A program made the position numbers and the translations under genes. 64,000 nucleotides of DNA, from contig NZ_VISM01000001.1 in the NCBI RefSeq assembly GCF_007827455.1, forward strand, positions 1,341,501-1,405,500, in the 5' to 3' direction. The notes under the pieces are model-generated. The model ran no database searches. It was not told the origin of the DNA and worked only from the letters and a program-made list of their open reading frames with translations. This DNA is from Lutibacter sp. Hel_I_33_5 (GTDB lineage Bacteria; Bacteroidota; Bacteroidia; Flavobacteriales; Flavobacteriaceae). This document shows positions 2,276 to 46,914 of this stretch, in pieces; position 1 is the stretch's first letter; each line of letters opens with the position of its first letter.

Positions 2276-2284
2276 TTATGTTCT

Positions 2285-2315
2285 AAAAAAAAAGTCTCGA
2301 AATTTTCGAGACTTT
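2285..2315 (-). terminator. Attenuator terminator in the pheA leader
   Basis: On the minus strand, an 11-bp stem AAAGTCTCGAA / TTCGAGACTTT (2315-2305 with 2301-2291) with a 3-base loop is followed by a T-run ending at 2285. It sits between the leader peptide and pheA, so it would stop transcription before the operon. The strand AAGTCTC can pair alternatively with GAGACTT at 2353-2347, extended by ATA/TAT across one bulged A. Confidence 0.85.
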
Positions 2316-2352
2316 ATATTTTATAATTGATTTAACAACATGGTATAAGTCT

Positions 2353-2412
2353 CTATCTTTTATTAAAAAAATAAAAGTAAAAATAGAAACGGTTCCAAGT
2401 GTTATGTAACAT
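2353..2412 (-). CDS. Phe/Tyr leader peptide of the pheA operon attenuator
   Basis: A 20-codon frame in the pheA leader encodes MLHNTWNRFYFYFYFFNKR. Codons 9-16 are Phe-Tyr-Phe-Tyr-Phe-Tyr-Phe-Phe, the end products of the operon it precedes. It begins about 20 bases after the likely transcription start and ends (TAG, 2355-2353) where GAGACTT, the putative antiterminator strand, begins. Translation is inferred; there is no Shine-Dalgarno sequence, as usual in this phylum. The eight-residue aromatic run in exactly this place is very unlikely to be chance. Confidence 0.82.
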   Translation of the reverse strand: MLHNTWNRFYFYFYFFNKR

Positions 2413-2437
2413 CTTAATAATCTTTGTTTTGAATTGA

Positions 2438-2468
2438 CAAATCTATACATTAATTTGATATAATCAAA
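2438..2468 (-). promoter_or_regulatory. Promoter of the pheA operon
   Basis: TTTG at 2468-2465 and TAGATTTG at 2445-2438 are separated by 19 bases, matching the Bacteroidota TTG / TAnnTTTG promoter. The transcription start should lie near 2432, giving a leader of about 155 nt that contains the leader peptide and terminator. Confidence 0.75.
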
Positions 2469-2683
2469 TATTGTGTACTTTATTTAATTAGAATTAAATA
2501 TTTCTTAATCTAAATGGTTGATTTTAATTTAAATTAATAATTCTTTCTTTTTTTAATGGTATTATTACTATTAATTCAAAGTATTACACTCAAAAACAAA
2601 CAATAATTAAGTAGTTTTTAAGTTTAAGAAAGGAAGTTTTGTTAAAAAAACACAATATTTCATGTTTGTTTTTATAAAAACTA

Positions 2684-2691
2684 TATATTTG
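2684..2691 (+). promoter_or_regulatory. -7 element ahead of the PorP/SprF gene
   Basis: TATATTTG matches TAnnTTTG about 22 bases upstream of the preferred TTG start at 2713. No good TTG lies at the expected 19-21 base distance, so the match is partial. Its main value is as an argument against translation starting at the ATG at 2662. Confidence 0.4.
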
Positions 2692-2712
2692 GAAACCCCT
2701 AAAGAATTAAGA

Positions 2713-3684
2713 TTGATAAAAAAAATCACTTTATTATTAATCATGTTTTTTTGCGTGAAAAATTTCGCACAAGAAACATTACCTATTTATTCTGATTATT
2801 TATCAGATAATGTCTATTTAGTACATCCTGCTGCTGCAGGAATCGGTACGTGTGCAAAGTTACGTTTAACAGCTAGACAACAATGGGCAGGAATAAAAAA
2901 TGCTCCAGAATTACAAACATTAAGTTTTCATAATAAGTTCACTGATAAAGCTGCTTTTGGGTTTGTTTTATTTAATGATAAGAACGGTTTTCATTCTCAA
3001 AAAGGAATTCAAAGCACCTATGCTTATCATTTAGAATTAGACCAAGGAAATGTATTTAATCAATTATCTTTTGGTTTGTCTTTTACTTTTGTACAAAATC
3101 AATCTGATCAAAGTACATTTACTGGTGATCCAGCAGTAAGTCAATTGATACAAAGCAGCTCTTATTATAATGCAGATTTTGGAATGGCTTATCATTTAGG
3201 TGGTTTTTCTTCATATTTAACGGTAAAGAATTTATTATTATCTGCAAAAACAGGTTTTAATGCTAGTTTTGAACCTTTAAACTTAAGAAACTATATTTTA
3301 TCGCTTGGTTATTATTTTGGACAAAATGCTAAAATTCAACTTGAACCTTCATTAATGGTACAACTAAGAGAATCTACTGGTGAAAGAATTGCTGATTTAA
3401 ATATTAAGGCCTATAAAAATTACGAAAATATGCAATTATGGTTTGCATTGTCATATAGAAGGAGTTTTGACACAAAACCTGTCCAAAACTTACAATACGT
3501 AACACCTATAATTGGCGTAAATTATAATCGTTTTATGTTTTCTTATACCTACACAAAACAAATAAATGATATTGTATTAACTAATAGTGGATTTAATCAA
3601 ATTTCTGTTGGATACGACTTGTTTTGTAAAAGACAAAGAGCTTCTGCCTGTCCAAACATCCATTCAGCATTCAATGGCTTTTAA
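2713..3684 (+). CDS. PorP/SprF family type IX secretion system membrane protein
   Basis: An outer-membrane beta-barrel of the PorP/SprF family. From TTG at 2713 it begins with a signal peptide (KKITLLLIMFFCVKNFAQ), followed by the family opening ETLPIYSDYLSDNVYLVHPA and repeated amphipathic strands ending SVGYDLFC. Family members are partners of type IX secretion substrates, for example SprF with SprB. An in-frame ATG at 2662 exists, but a TAnnTTTG match at 2684-2691 lies inside that extension and the extension spoils the signal peptide, so I prefer 2713 (about 323 residues). The C-terminus overlaps the convergent murI stop by 4 bases. No giant adhesin partner gene lies beside it here. Confidence 0.85.
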   Translation: MIKKITLLLIMFFCVKNFAQETLPIYSDYLSDNVYLVHPAAAGIGTCAKLRLTARQQWAGIKNAPELQTLSFHNKFTDKAAFGFVLFNDKNGFHSQKGIQSTYAYHLELDQGNVFNQLSFGLSFTFVQNQSDQSTFTGDPAVSQLIQSSSYYNADFGMAYHLGGFSSYLTVKNLLLSAKTGFNASFEPLNLRNYILSLGYYFGQNAKIQLEPSLMVQLRESTGERIADLNIKAYKNYENMQLWFALSYRRSFDTKPVQNLQYVTPIIGVNYNRFMFSYTYTKQINDIVLTNSGFNQISVGYDLFCKRQRASACPNIHSAFNGF

Positions 3685-41174: not shown

Positions 41175-42431
41175 TTATAAATTAAAAGCTTCTTTAACTT
41201 TATCTACATAATCTAATTTTTCCCAAGTAAACGTTTCTACTTCTTGAGAAACAGTTTCTCCCATTGGATTAGAAAAAGTTACCGTTTTCTTTTCTGATGC
41301 TCTTCCCATATGACCATATGCTGCAGTTTCAGAATAAATTGGTGTTCTTAATTTTAAACGTTGTTCAATAAAATATGGACGCATATCAAAAATAGTCTCT
41401 ACTATTTTACTGATTTCTCCATCTGTTTTATCGATTGTTGCCGTTCCGTAAGTTTCAACATTAATACTTGTTGGTTTTGCAACACCAATAGCGTAAGAAA
41501 CTTGAACTAAAACTTCTTTACACAAACCAGCTGCGACTAAATTTTTAGCAATATGACGTGTTGCATAAGCTCCAGATCTATCAACTTTAGAAGGATCTTT
41601 ACCAGAAAACGCTCCACCTCCGTGCGCTCCTTTCCCTCCGTATGTATCTACAATAATTTTTCTTCCAGTTAAACCTGTATCTCCATGAGGTCCACCGATT
41701 ACAAAAACTCCAGTTGGATTAATATGATAGGTAATATCCTTTGTAAATAATGCTTGAATTTTAGCAGGTAATTTTGCAACTACCCTTGGAATTAAAATAC
41801 TAACAATGTCTGATTTAATTTTAGCAAGCATTACTTCTTCACTTCCATCAAAATCATCATGCTGAGTAGAAATTACAATTGCATCGATTCTTTGCGGAAC
41901 ATTATCATCAGAATACTCAATAGTTACTTGAGATTTTGCATCTGGTCGTAAATATTTAATATCTTTATTTTCTCTACGTAATTCAGCTAACTCAATTAAT
42001 AATCTATGTGATAATTCTAATGCTAATGGCATATAATTATCCGTTTCATCTGTTGCATAACCAAACATCATTCCTTGATCTCCTGCTCCTTGGTCTTCTG
42101 GATTTGCTCTAACAACTCCTTGATTAATATCTGGTGATTGTTCATGGATTGCAGAAAATACACCACAAGAATTTCCATCAAACATATACTCACTTTTAGT
42201 ATAACCAATTTTATTGATTACATCTCTTGCAATTTTTTGAACATCTAAATAGGTTTTAGACTTCACTTCTCCTGCCAAAACAACTTGACCAGTGGTTACT
42301 AAGGTTTCACAAGCAACTTTACTTGTAGCGTCAAATGCTAAGAAATTATCAATTAAAGCATCCGAAATCTGATCTGAAACTTTGTCTGGATGTCCTTCAG
42401 AAACACTTTCTGAGGTAAATAAATATGACAT
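41175..42431 (-). CDS. metK: S-adenosylmethionine synthetase
   Basis: A 418-residue MetK that makes SAM from methionine and ATP. Signatures: [25 protein letters not shown] at the start, [12 protein letters not shown] near residue 115, and the phosphate-binding [19 protein letters not shown] near residue 270. Its leader (42432 to about 42570) can form a three-way-junction RNA, suggesting regulation by a metabolite or another factor. It is divergent from the SAM-I-controlled metH operon. Confidence 0.97.
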
Positions 42432-42464: not shown

Positions 42465-42549
42465 TGATTGCAAGTTTGCTAAAAGAAGTAAAATATACTG
42501 CTTTAGCATTTTTATTTAAAGCTTTTTTAGCTTTAAGAGGTTGCAATCA
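42465..42549 (-). ncRNA. Structured three-way-junction element in the metK leader
   Basis: Read on the minus strand, P1 TGATTGCAA / TTGCAATCA (9 bp, perfect) encloses P2 TTAAAGCT / AGCTTTAA (8 bp, 5-base loop) and P3 TGCTAAA / TTTAGCA (7 bp) capped by AGTA / TACT. Junction segments are CCTC, ATAAAAA and AAC. It lies downstream of the likely metK start of transcription and 33 bases before the ATG. I cannot match it to a named riboswitch class. Confidence 0.6.
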
Positions 42550-42575
42550 GTTCAAATTTTTCCTCAAATATGCTG

Positions 42576-42583: not shown

Positions 42584-42687
42584 TATATTATATTCATCAT
42601 TTAATAAACTTATGTAAAAAAATAATCAAAAAATTTGGATATTAAATTTTTATAAGCGAATATTTGCTTGTTCATTGACTTAATGAG

Positions 42688-42819
42688 GTTATCATGAAAG
42701 GTGGAGGAAATAGATCCAATGAAACCTTAGCAACCCTTTATTTTAAAGAAGGTGCTATATTCTACTAGTACTTAAATTGTATTTAGACAGATAACGGAAA
42801 AAAATCTTTTCCTGATAAC
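42688..42819 (+). ncRNA. SAM-I (S-box) riboswitch upstream of metH
   Basis: The conserved S-box core is visible: GTTATCATGAAAGGTGGAGG, then a segment with GATCCAATGAAACCTTAGCAACC, AAGGTGCTATATTC, and closing TGATAAC. P1 is GTTATCA (42688-42694) with TGATAAC (42813-42819). SAM binding should lower expression of the downstream methionine genes. No clear terminator follows; instead CCTGAT (42811-42816) can pair with ATCAGG (42834-42839) next to the ATG, a candidate translational platform. Confidence 0.9.
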
Positions 42820-42840: not shown

Positions 42841-43848
42841 ATGTCAGATATTTATAAAGAATTACAAAAAAGAATTTTAGTTTTAGATGGTGCAATGGGG
42901 ACCATGCTTCAAGCCTATAAATTTACAGAAGAAGATTTTCGTGGCGAACGTTTTAAAGATTACGCAACGCCACTACAAGGGAACAATGATTTGTTGTCAA
43001 TTACGCAGCCGGAAGCCATAAAAACAATTCACGGAAAGTATTTTGAAGCAGGTGCAGATATTGTAGAAACCAATACATTTTCAGGAACTACAATAGCAAT
43101 GGCCGATTACCAAATGGAAGATTTGGTGTATGAATTGAATTATCAATCTGCAAAAATAGCAAAAGAAGTTGCTGATGAATTTACCGCTAAAGAACCTCAT
43201 AAACCTCGATTTGTTGCAGGATCAATAGGGCCAACAAACCGAACAGCAAGCATGTCTCCAGATGTAAATGACCCTGGATACAGAGCTGTAACATTTGATG
43301 AATTACGCATAGCATATAAACAGCAAACAGAAGCATTGCTTGATGGCGGTGCCGATTTACTTTTAATAGAAACAGTGTTTGATACGTTAAACGCTAAAGC
43401 AGCATTATTTGCTGTAGAAGAAGTAAAATCAGAACGAAATATTGAAGTCCCAATAATGCTAAGCGGAACAATTACAGATGCTTCAGGCAGAACATTATCA
43501 GGACAAACAGCCGAAGCTTTTTTAATATCTGTCTCCCATATTCCTTTATTATCGGTAGGATTCAATTGTGCTTTAGGTGCAAATTTATTGCAGCCTCACC
43601 TAGAAGCTATAGCCAATAAAACAGATTTTGCAGTTTCTGCACATCCAAATGCTGGATTGCCAAACGCTTTTGGAGAATATGATGAAACACCAGAAGAAAT
43701 GGGGGAACAAATTGAAGAATATCTAAAAAAAAATTTAATTAATATTATAGGTGGTTGTTGTGGTACAAGTCCAGCGCATATTAAAGTAATAGCTGATATC
43801 GCAGCAAAATACAAACCACGTCATGCTGAATTAGTTTCGGCTTCATAA
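42841..43848 (+). CDS. metH: Methionine synthase, homocysteine-binding half
   Basis: A 335-residue homocysteine S-methyltransferase domain equal to the N-terminal module of cobalamin-dependent MetH. It starts [17 protein letters not shown], has [13 protein letters not shown] and [26 protein letters not shown], and carries the zinc cysteines in VGFNCALGA and [11 protein letters not shown]. The final residues RHAELVSAS come from a repeat sequence. The remaining modules are a separate gene at 44141. Confidence 0.93.
43819..43846. repeat. Repeat-derived 3' end of the first metH gene
   Basis: A 28-bp segment starting CGTCATGCTGAATTAG and ending in CGGCTTCAT has the form of a short palindromic repeat (GCTGAA / TTCGGC) that I recognise as common in Flavobacteria. 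It encodes RHAELVSAS, a tail outside the normal fold. Confidence 0.6.
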
Positions 43849-44141: not shown

Positions 44142-46816
44142 TGAAGATTAATCAAACAAAATACATGAAACTATCTGGTTTAGAACCTTTGGTTCTAAAC
44201 GAAAACAGTAATTTCATAAACGTCGGAGAACGAACAAATGTAGCAGGATCACGTAAATTTCTTCGTTTAGTAAAAGAAGAAAAATTTGATGAAGCGTTAG
44301 ATGTAGCACGTCATCAAGTGGATGGTGGTGCGCAAATTATTGACATTAATATGGACGATGGTCTTATTGATGGAAAAGAGGCCATGGTTCGTTTTTTGAA
44401 TTTAATTGCTGCCGAACCTGATATTTGTAGAGTACCTATAATGATTGACAGCTCCAAGTGGGAAATCATTGAAGCTGGATTACAAGTAGTACAAGGAAAA
44501 TGTGTTGTAAATTCAATTTCATTAAAAGAAGGAGAAGAAAAATTCATTTGGGAAGCTACTCAAATTAAACGTTATGGTGCAGCTGTAATTGTAATGGCTT
44601 TTGATGAAGTTGGACAAGCGGATAATTACGAACGTAGAATTGAAATTTCAAAACGTTCTTATGATATTTTAGTTGATAAAGTAGGTTTTCCTTCCGAAGA
44701 TATTATTTTCGATTTAAACATTTTTCCTGTAGCTACAGGAATGGATGAACATAAAAAAAATGCCATCGATTTTATTGAAGCAACCCGTTGGGTGCGTCAA
44801 AACTTACCAAATGCTAGTGTTAGTGGAGGTGTGAGTAATGTGTCTTTTTCTTTTAGAGGAAATAATGGTGTACGTGAAGCAATGCACTCAGTGTTTTTAT
44901 ACCACGCAATTCAAGCTGGCATGAATATGGGGATTGTGAATCCAGCGCTTTTAGAAGTGTATGACGATATTCCAAAAGATTTATTAGAACATGTTGAAGA
45001 TGTTATTTTAAACCGAAGAGATGATGCTACCGAACGTTTATTAGACTTTGCAGAAACTGTAAAAGGATCAAAAGTTGAAAAAGGATTGGATTTATCTTGG
45101 CGAGAAAATCCAACACAAGATCGTATTACTCATGCTTTAGTAAAAGGTATTGATGCTTTTATAGTCGAAGATGTAGAAACGGCAAGACAAGAATCTGAAA
45201 AACCTATAGATGTTATTGAAGGTCATTTAATGATTGGTATGAATGTGGTAGGTGATTTATTCGGCGCTGGTAAAATGTTTTTACCGCAAGTGGTAAAATC
45301 AGCACGTGTAATGAAAAAAGCAGTTGCTTATTTAAATCCATTTATTGAAGCCGAAAAAACAGAAAAACAAGAACCTGTTGGAAAAATATTAATGGCAACC
45401 GTAAAAGGTGATGTACATGATATTGGTAAAAATATTGTAAGCGTAGTACTAGCCTGTAACAACTATGAAATAGTTGATTTAGGTGTAATGGTACCACCAG
45501 AAAAAATTATTGCAACTGCAAAAGAACAAAATGTAGATGTTATAGGTTTAAGTGGTTTGATTACTCCATCATTAGACGAAATGGTGTACTTAGCAAAAGA
45601 AATGGAGCGTCAAAACTTTACCATTCCGTTATTAATTGGTGGTGCAACAACCTCTAAAGCTCATACAGCTGTTAAAATAGATACCCAATATAAAAATGCG
45701 GTAGTTCATGTAAATGATGCATCAAGAGCGGTAACTGTTGTAGGTGATTTATTAAACAAGAAAACGTCGCAAGAATATGTGACTAATATGAAAAAAGACT
45801 ATGATTTGTTCCGTGAAAAGTTTTTAAAACGCGGAAAAACAAAATCATATATTTCTATAGAAGAAGCACGTAAGCGAAAATTTAAAATAGATTGGGAAAC
45901 AACCAATATTACAAAACCTAACGAATTAGGCGTTCAAACTTTAGAACAACTAAGTTTAAAAGAATTAATCCCATATATTGATTGGAGTCCGTTTTTTAGA
46001 AGTTGGGACTTACATGGTAAATATCCATCTATTTTAGAAGATAAGGTTGTAGGTGAACAAGCAAGGAGTTTATTTAATGATGCTCAGGACATGTTGAATA
46101 AAATTGTTGCAAATCAATCTTTTAAGCCTAAAGGGATTTTTGGATTATTTGAAGCAAACACCATAAATGACGATGATATCTCGGTTCAAAAAAACGAAAA
46201 AGAAATTGCAGTGTTTAGAACACTACGTCAGCAATTAAAAAAACGTGATGGTATACCTAGTTTCGGATTAGCCGATTTTGTTGCCCCAAAAGAAAGTAAT
46301 AAAAAAGATTATGTTGGTGCATTTTGTACCGCTATTTTTGGAGCTGATGAATTAGCAAAATCGTATAAAGAAAATCTAGACGATTATAATGCTATTATGA
46401 CACAAGCATTAGCAGATCGATTTGCTGAAGCTTTTGCAGAATATTTACATCATCGTGTTAGAACCCAACATTGGGGTTATGCAAGTGACGAAAATTTAAG
46501 TAACGAAGATTTTATAAAGGAAACCTATAAAGGAATTAGACCAGCACCAGGTTACCCTGCATGTCCAGATCATTTAGAAAAAGAAACGATTTGGGAATTA
46601 TTGAATGTAGAAAACAAAATTGGTGTAACCTTAACGGAAAGTTTAGCCATGTGGCCTGGAGCTGCAGTATCTGGTTTTTATTTTGCAAATGAAGAATCTA
46701 AATATTTTGGTTTAGGAAAAATTACTCAAGATCAAGTAATTGATTTTGCAGATAGAAAAGGAATCACTTTAGAAAAAGCGAACAAATGGTTACATCCTAA
46801 TTTAGCGGAAGAGTAA
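44141..46816 (+). CDS. metH: Methionine synthase, folate/cobalamin/activation half
   Basis: An 891-residue protein with the remaining MetH modules. The pterin-binding domain is about 20-320 ([20 protein letters not shown]). The B12 cap and B12-binding domain carry [33 protein letters not shown], where His is the cobalt ligand, at about 425. The activation domain is near the C-terminus ([17 protein letters not shown]). It transfers methyl from methyl-THF through cobalamin. No TonB-type B12 transporter is in the window. Confidence 0.95.
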
Positions 46817-46914
46817 GCTTGCGTTAGCGATTGAAACGGCATCCTTTTTTGAGGAACGAAAAAAAGATATAGTGTAAAGCGCGACCCTTGAGGTAACGCC
46901 CAAGAAAAATAAAT
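46817..46914. repeat. GC-richer intergenic repeat between metH and metF
   Basis: The 98-bp gap has base composition unlike the surrounding genes, with GCTTGCGTTAGCGATTG, AACGGCATCC and AAGCGCGACCC segments that I recognise as a widespread Flavobacterial intergenic repeat. Short self-complementary arms such as TTGCG...CGCAA-like pairs occur but no strong terminator. Confidence 0.5.

Follow-up and report, generated by a model that had tools for sequence, protein, structure and literature searches.

What controls transcription of the genes for Phe and Tyr synthesis in Lutibacter sp. Hel_I_33_5, and which amino acids would such a control register? The question is raised by a region upstream of pheA, near one end of the window (the whole stretch of 64,000 nucleotides analysed here), in which a small open reading frame (ORF) rich in Phe and Tyr codons is followed by a terminator. 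Judged by its sequence, it is highly likely that this leader is a classical ribosome-mediated transcription attenuator controlling pheA, a class I/II aminotransferase gene, tyrA and a gene for DAHP synthase fused to chorismate mutase.

The leader and its operon

The coordinates of a promoter, a 19-residue leader peptide, a GAGACTT strand and an 11-bp terminator given in a preliminary description of this DNA, and the peptide itself, all proved correct in the sequence (Table 1), and the pairing of GAGACTT with AAGTCTC that it proposed as an alternative to the terminator 3' arm is present in the window. Two elements were absent from that inventory, a hairpin here called 1:2 and a Trp codon in the leader ORF. 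Its operon of pheA, aminotransferase and tyrA is likewise correct as far as it goes; the fourth gene was missed because it lies beyond the window edge.

Table 1. Features of the leader and of the operon downstream, in window coordinates unless a locus is named.
Feature	Position	Strand	Details
Promoter	2468-2438	minus	-33 TTTG at 2468-2465, 19 nt spacing, -7 box TAGATTTG at 2445-2438; sequence reading
Leader ORF	2412-2353	minus	19 codons, ATG at 2412, peptide MLHNTWNRFYFYFYFFNKR, TAG at 2355-2353
Trp codon of leader ORF	2397-2395	minus	sequence
Phe/Tyr run FYFYFYFF	codons 2388-2365	minus	eight consecutive codons inside leader ORF
1:2 hairpin, outer helix	GTTTCTAT 2390-2383 with ATAGAGAC 2356-2349	minus	fold
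1:2 hairpin, inner helix	CTTTTATT 2377-2370 with AATAAAAG 2364-2357	minus	fold and compensatory pairs in relatives
Region 2, GAGACTT	2353-2347	minus	overlaps leader stop codon, G common to both
Region 3, AAGTCTC	2314-2308	minus	can pair with region 2 (antiterminator) or region 4 (terminator)
Intrinsic terminator	2315-2285	minus	11-bp stem 2315-2305/2301-2291, loop of 3, nine T at 2293-2285
pheA, prephenate dehydratase	1448-2275	minus	first operon gene; PF00800, E 4.4e-54
Class I/II aminotransferase	309-1451	minus	PF00155, E 8.9e-62
tyrA, prephenate dehydrogenase	1-312, cut by window edge; whole gene L284 2286-3137	minus	PF02153, PF20463
DAHP synthase fused to chorismate mutase	outside window, L284 1183-2265		fourth operon gene; PF00793, PF01817

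The whole leader is placed between a divergent gene (2662-3684, plus strand) and pheA, and sequence and folding put the intrinsic terminator between the leader ORF and pheA, with the T-run ending 9 nt before the pheA ATG (2275). The -7 box agrees with the flavobacterial consensus TAnnTTTG, which is located at -12 to -5 in an account of Flavobacterium psychrophilum (PMC9723704), and transcription is thus predicted to start near 2433, about 20 nt ahead of the leader ATG. Among the 30 loci returned by our first search, this one included, and counting the -7 box only, the exact motif precedes the leader in 21 and the variant AAGATTTG in nine. No GGAGG occurs upstream of the leader ATG in the window sequence; both the promoters and the translation initiation of the flavobacterial group are described as departing from standard models (PMC9723704).

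The codon cluster of the leader matches the products of the operon, with eight Phe/Tyr codons standing before pheA, tyrA and the DAHP synthase/chorismate mutase gene. Such a run is by itself nothing unusual in a genome this rich in AT: the 8-codon pattern has 18 matches compared with 21 in a reversed control, and 14 of the 18 sit in TAT or TTC repeats. On these counts the run was dropped as evidence in itself; what stands above chance is its position, the terminator and their conservation.

Distribution in Flavobacteriaceae and the wider class

The preliminary description had proposed a comparison of pheA orthologues, and in this comparison the attenuation layout (aromatic run, terminator and alternative pairing) does recur across the genus group, the family and part of the class. 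The first search gave matches in 43 of 59 genus-group genomes, and all 30 loci returned carry leader and terminator (L008 and L019 read by eye). When titled genome contigs were scanned and the best 80 of 523 loci kept, a Phe/Tyr leader was present in all 80, from Tenacibaculum, Polaribacter, Lutibacter, Algibacter, Wocania, Flaviramulus, along with others, many of them uncultured. A covariance model was built from alignment A2, which holds 59 non-redundant genus-group leaders including that of the window, and run on 58 genus genomes; it found a single match of at least 65 bits in each of 54, the next listed match reaching 48 bits, and these matches are partly by construction, because many of the scanned genomes supplied the model, but the singleness of the match is not. 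The exceptions are three incomplete genomes without a pheA match (G007, G030 and G031) and one that is 80% complete and lay outside the pheA search (G367). In all 33 genomes compared (own included), the best match and pheA share a strand, with the match upstream at a distance of 8-23 nt in 32 of them and 123 nt in one.

Beyond the genus group, 149 family and 149 class genomes were searched with a PheA profile; it matched 136 and 41 of them, respectively, so that the class result covers only genomes with a PheA near enough to find. We read the upstream regions of pheA in 134 family and 38 class genomes (of the 38, one shares the family with Lutibacter and another the order), and called a leader where a short ATG-initiated ORF had at least five Phe/Tyr codons in eight. 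Leaders were found in 129/134 family and 23/38 class genomes, compared with 30/402 and 3/114 shuffles and with 7/134 and 2/38 on the opposite strand; a stricter call of at least six in eight left 108/134 and 21/38 (shuffles 2/402 and 0/114; opposite strand 1/134 in the family). A fixed scan detected a terminator downstream of the leader in 129/129 family and 21/23 class cases (shuffles 10/645 and 3/115), and the two class leaders that it missed show a hairpin and T-run by eye. At the threshold of five in eight, five of the 134 family genomes and 15 of the 38 class genomes have no Phe/Tyr leader before pheA, and no replacement was recognised in the last 200 nt before pheA in the five family genomes. 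Two loci below the run threshold (L254 and L274) have YFWFY in a short leader and show a hairpin ahead of T. In genome G292 (L246/L305), a Phe/Tyr leader and a terminator-like hairpin precede the DAHP synthase gene, which is itself upstream of pheA in the cluster.

The order pheA, aminotransferase, tyrA, DAHP synthase on one strand was read by tblastn in 73/73 titled loci with enough downstream sequence (from the best 80 of 523; the other seven are too short). Of the 23 class genomes that carry a Phe/Tyr leader, downstream DNA was examined for 19. All 19 have DAHP synthase/chorismate mutase downstream of pheA and on its strand, while the aminotransferase was not found in seven and tyrA was not found in 11. 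What stays constant is thus pheA together with the enzyme at the entry to the whole aromatic pathway. As a side observation, DAHP synthase/chorismate mutase lies ahead of pheA in L305 (1-13001), and the Phe/Tyr leader with its terminator-like hairpin is found ahead of that gene and not ahead of pheA.

Alternative pairings of the leader RNA

The 147-nt leader folds with -30.6 kcal/mol (z -4.36; none of 200 shuffles folded equally well) into two main hairpins, the terminator and the 1:2 hairpin. The latter joins the Arg-Phe-Tyr codons with the stop region, sequestering region 2 in the fold, and it pairs, in the fold and in relatives, the control codons with region 2, as expected of classical attenuators. 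In our model it would sequester region 2 while the leader is untranslated. Within A2, two pairs of its inner helix are kept despite two-sided changes in 22/59 and 5/59 sequences, and over the whole structure 38 cells are changed on both sides compared with 13.6 in shuffles (0/500 as high), these counts being of sequences and not of independent events. The number of pairs with two-sided change, four, is not above shuffles (81/500 as high). One co-changing pair links the third base of a Tyr codon with the Asn/Ser codon that follows the run, and peptide letters therefore follow the RNA here. The RNAalifold consensus predicted the terminator and no other hairpin; an outer helix joining the start-codon region with a stretch past region 2 scored 12.63 compared with 11.83 permuted (8/5,000 as high), which is too weak to claim.

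The pairing of regions 2 and 3, which excludes the 3:4 terminator, is present in the window and matched within genomes beyond permutation. From one lineage to another, a change in region 2 goes with a matching change in the 5' arm of the terminator (GAGACT/AGTCTC, GGGACT/AGTCCC, CCGGGTT/AACCCGG, AAGGCT/AGCCTT, AGGACTTT/AAAGTCCT, CGAGGCTTT/AAAGCCTCG and others). The pairing score within genomes is 17.07, compared with a permuted mean of 13.46 (sd 0.22, maximum 14.23; n=150, 10,000 permutations); taken separately, the 129 family leaders score 16.99 against 13.73 and the 21 class leaders 17.55 against 14.32. With near relatives thinned, in permutation tests that are not tree-based, the scores are 17.30 against 13.36 for representatives less than 75% alike (n=54; 0/10,000 as high), 16.81 against 13.11 for those less than 65% alike (n=21; 0/10,000) and 15.92 against 13.49 for those less than 60% alike (n=12; 8/10,000). 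An unbroken row of six or more Watson-Crick pairs is present in 93/150 leaders compared with 632/2,894 swapped-arm pairs, the other 57 lacking six in the stretch searched. Within the genus group no 2:3 covariation rises above shuffles, since the helix hardly varies there, and the pairing became testable only with wider relatives. Taken together, switches of a similar kind, with matched changes of the strands that pair, precede these genes in most Flavobacteriaceae and in part of the class as examined here, and the one in the window is therefore very probably a real, classical supply sensor.

In the window the 2:3 helix is weak (-7.6 kcal/mol for the segment, compared with -12.5 for the terminator) and the stretch spanning regions 2 to 4 folds preferentially into the terminator, so that antitermination would need kinetic capture; the means over the 59 A2 leaders are -13.1 and -12.5 kcal/mol, respectively. 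We infer the kinetic steps, termination itself and separate responses to Phe and Tyr, with the timing modelled on established attenuators as passages of PMC1183508 describe it. RNA polymerase would start near 2433. As long as the leader were not translated, the 1:2 hairpin would hold region 2 and the terminator would form. Ample aromatic aminoacyl-tRNAs would bring the ribosome to the stop codon, where it would mask region 2, allowing the terminator to form and transcription to end near 2285. If these aminoacyl-tRNAs were scarce, the ribosome would stall in the Phe/Tyr run and cover region 1, leaving region 2 free to catch region 3 before the synthesis of region 4, and the operon would be transcribed. 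The charging sensed would be that of tRNA-Phe, tRNA-Tyr and possibly tRNA-Trp. Ribosome-mediated attenuation needs a ribosome close behind RNA polymerase, and a conserved attenuator in bacteria lacking Shine-Dalgarno-led initiation makes transcription-translation coupling there directly testable.

Where the leader ends relative to region 2 differs among relatives. Among the 109 of 110 loci in which the pattern was found, 39 have the start of region 2 at 1 nt past the first nucleotide of the stop codon, and 58 have it 20 nt ahead of that nucleotide. The genus group thus has two leader-end designs, one that stops at region 2 and one that reads through it and stops 20 nt after its start; read-through ends often spell RDFVSCC, and the sequence past region 2 is similar in both designs. 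Judged by position, the footprint of a terminating ribosome may cover region 2 wholly or partly at either stop position.

Amino acids sensed and relation to known attenuators

Two other ways of reading the region as a whole have to be weighed. The small ORF could encode a functional peptide, with the hairpin being an unrelated terminator. Strong conservation of the peptide within the genus group speaks for this, but outside the aromatic run the peptide differs widely between lineages while the RNA pairing persists, and no other transcript is seen for the terminator to end because the upstream gene (2662-3684) is divergent. We consider this reading very improbable and have set it aside on these two grounds. 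Instead of a translated attenuator, the leader could also be a T-box or an RNA that binds a metabolite or a protein, and it is indeed structured, as its z-score indicates. What is conserved, however, is a reading frame that has the appropriate codons and a stop close by; no Rfam family was found on the leader at gathering score, and neither a T-box nor a riboswitch was listed there or in a permissive scan of 2200-2620. The chance of a binding RNA appears slight, and a T-box or riboswitch was rejected on the two Rfam scans.

Within ribosome-mediated attenuation, the choice of amino acid is a matter of the codons. Phe and Tyr codons both occur in every leader with a terminator (129/129 in the family, 21/21 in the class). 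Among 87 distinct leader ORFs, drawn from the first 30 loci and the best 80 of 523 titled loci (overlapping sets), changes in the run chiefly swap Phe and Tyr, and the densest 8-residue window contains a residue other than these in 12. It is nevertheless conceivable, if unlikely, that a single amino acid acts, most likely Phe, and that the codons for Tyr and Trp play no active part, being retained through pairing or chance. This is how the aroR leader of Corynebacterium glutamicum behaves in the account given in PMC11802643, where it carries Phe-Tyr-Phe before a DAHP synthase gene and Phe limitation acts and Tyr limitation does not; that account also describes control of E. coli pheL by Phe-tRNA (PMC11802643). 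The Phe/Tyr run moreover doubles as a hairpin arm, which constrains its letters. The joint presence of both codons, the Phe/Tyr swaps and the finding of tyrA downstream in each of the 73 titled loci that could be read argue against a single amino acid, and, given attenuation, the leader probably senses Phe and Tyr jointly.

An aromatic residue stands three places ahead of the densest Phe/Tyr stretch in 75/87 ORFs (Trp 51, Phe 22, Tyr 2). A Trp codon is present in 90/129 family leaders, compared with 52/348 of the remaining small ORFs found upstream of the same pheA genes, and 89 of the 92 family Trp codons fall at most four residues from the start of the densest stretch. This recurrence in the family suggests that all three aromatic amino acids may be sensed. 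DAHP synthase also supplies Trp, and a Trp codon in its leader would be useful. The link is not strict, because only 4/21 class leaders have a Trp codon and class operons without one also hold DAHP synthase; in addition, the trpE-like gene of the same genome carries a separate WWW leader. On balance, Trp sensing is a tentative suggestion from codon positions, somewhat doubtful as it stands. Equally provisional is the fuller proposal that one leader peptide would use the run to read Phe and Tyr and the adjacent codon to read Trp, would set DAHP synthase together with the Phe/Tyr branch, and would be an old sensor of Flavobacteriaceae and the class, working without Shine-Dalgarno-led initiation. 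With the Trp codon beside the Phe/Tyr run, a three-amino-acid sensor is testable with one reporter.

Two further leaders in the same genome, read by eye, each have a terminator-like hairpin and count in favour of attenuation at pheA: a Trp leader (MMKQINIWWWNSLNQ) ahead of the trpE-like gene (L286, G000:C1 near 2453288) and a His leader (MTFIQNHHHHFHICSQAN) ahead of hisG (L288, G000:C1 near 306154-306618). They resemble the pheA leader in having a peptide with WWW or HHHHFH followed by such a hairpin, and differ from it in serving mainly one amino acid each, at different operons.

The type of attenuator is already known. The E. coli pheA attenuator (pheL, RF01859) likewise has a terminator before pheA, alternative hairpins and a leader peptide with Phe codons; here, by contrast, Phe and Tyr codons alternate, one Trp codon is added, and the leader precedes a four-gene operon including tyrA and DAHP synthase. 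Against the corresponding Rfam model (RF01859, Phe_leader) our leader scores 28.1 bits with an E of 0.01, below the gathering score of 55 that marks membership. A study of Shewanella includes a pheA leader (PMC2659441). The aroR leader before aroF in C. glutamicum (Neshat 2014, as related in PMC11802643), the one precedent for a mixed Phe/Tyr leader that our search of the literature turned up, is similar in its mixed Phe-Tyr-Phe and in the DAHP synthase gene downstream; it belongs to another phylum, its aromatic stretch is described as shorter, and Tyr supply is described as without effect (PMC11802643).

In Flavobacteriaceae the Phe/Tyr leader is partly anticipated. A 2021 paper on F. psychrophilum described structured 5' elements ahead of both pheA and hisG, found in other genera too, together with 'strong clues' of leader-peptide attenuation ahead of amino-acid operons (PMC9723704). 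The pheA element concerns the same gene in the same family, and the section on these elements does not give a leader peptide, its codons, alternative pairing or wider distribution (PMC9723704). A map of B. thetaiotaomicron has small ORFs resembling leader peptides, and the terms 'pheA' and 'phenylalanine' are absent from its main text (PMC7366714). Beyond the hint in F. psychrophilum, our search of the literature, which covered titles, the starts of abstracts and passages, found no Phe/Tyr leader in Bacteroidota, nor its distribution, matched pairing or Trp codon. The preliminary description had given joint Phe/Tyr control as a mode that it had not seen described in Flavobacteria; this holds for the Phe/Tyr leader itself, as far as that search extended, and has to be qualified for the conserved pheA element and the suspected leader peptides. 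Vitreschak et al. 2004 reportedly mentions attenuators of Bacteroidetes/Chlorobi, and a pheA Phe/Tyr leader may already have been predicted there or by Lopatovskaya et al. 2010 (Mol Biol 44:128). With the leader read as an attenuator, we would have, for a large bacterial group, a circuit by which the synthesis of aromatic amino acids is controlled.

The window holds further RNA elements, located far from the pheA leader. A SAM-II riboswitch (42493-42571, minus strand) points toward an ORF at 41175-42431 that looks by eye like S-adenosylmethionine synthetase, and a SAM (S box) riboswitch (42686-42797, plus strand) points toward ORFs at 42841 and 44141 that look by eye like parts of methionine synthase, so that two riboswitch classes are arranged back to back. 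A Flavo-1 RNA, a flavobacterial motif (RF01705, 51.3 bits; 46812-46890, plus strand), begins at the end of the methionine-synthase-like ORF.
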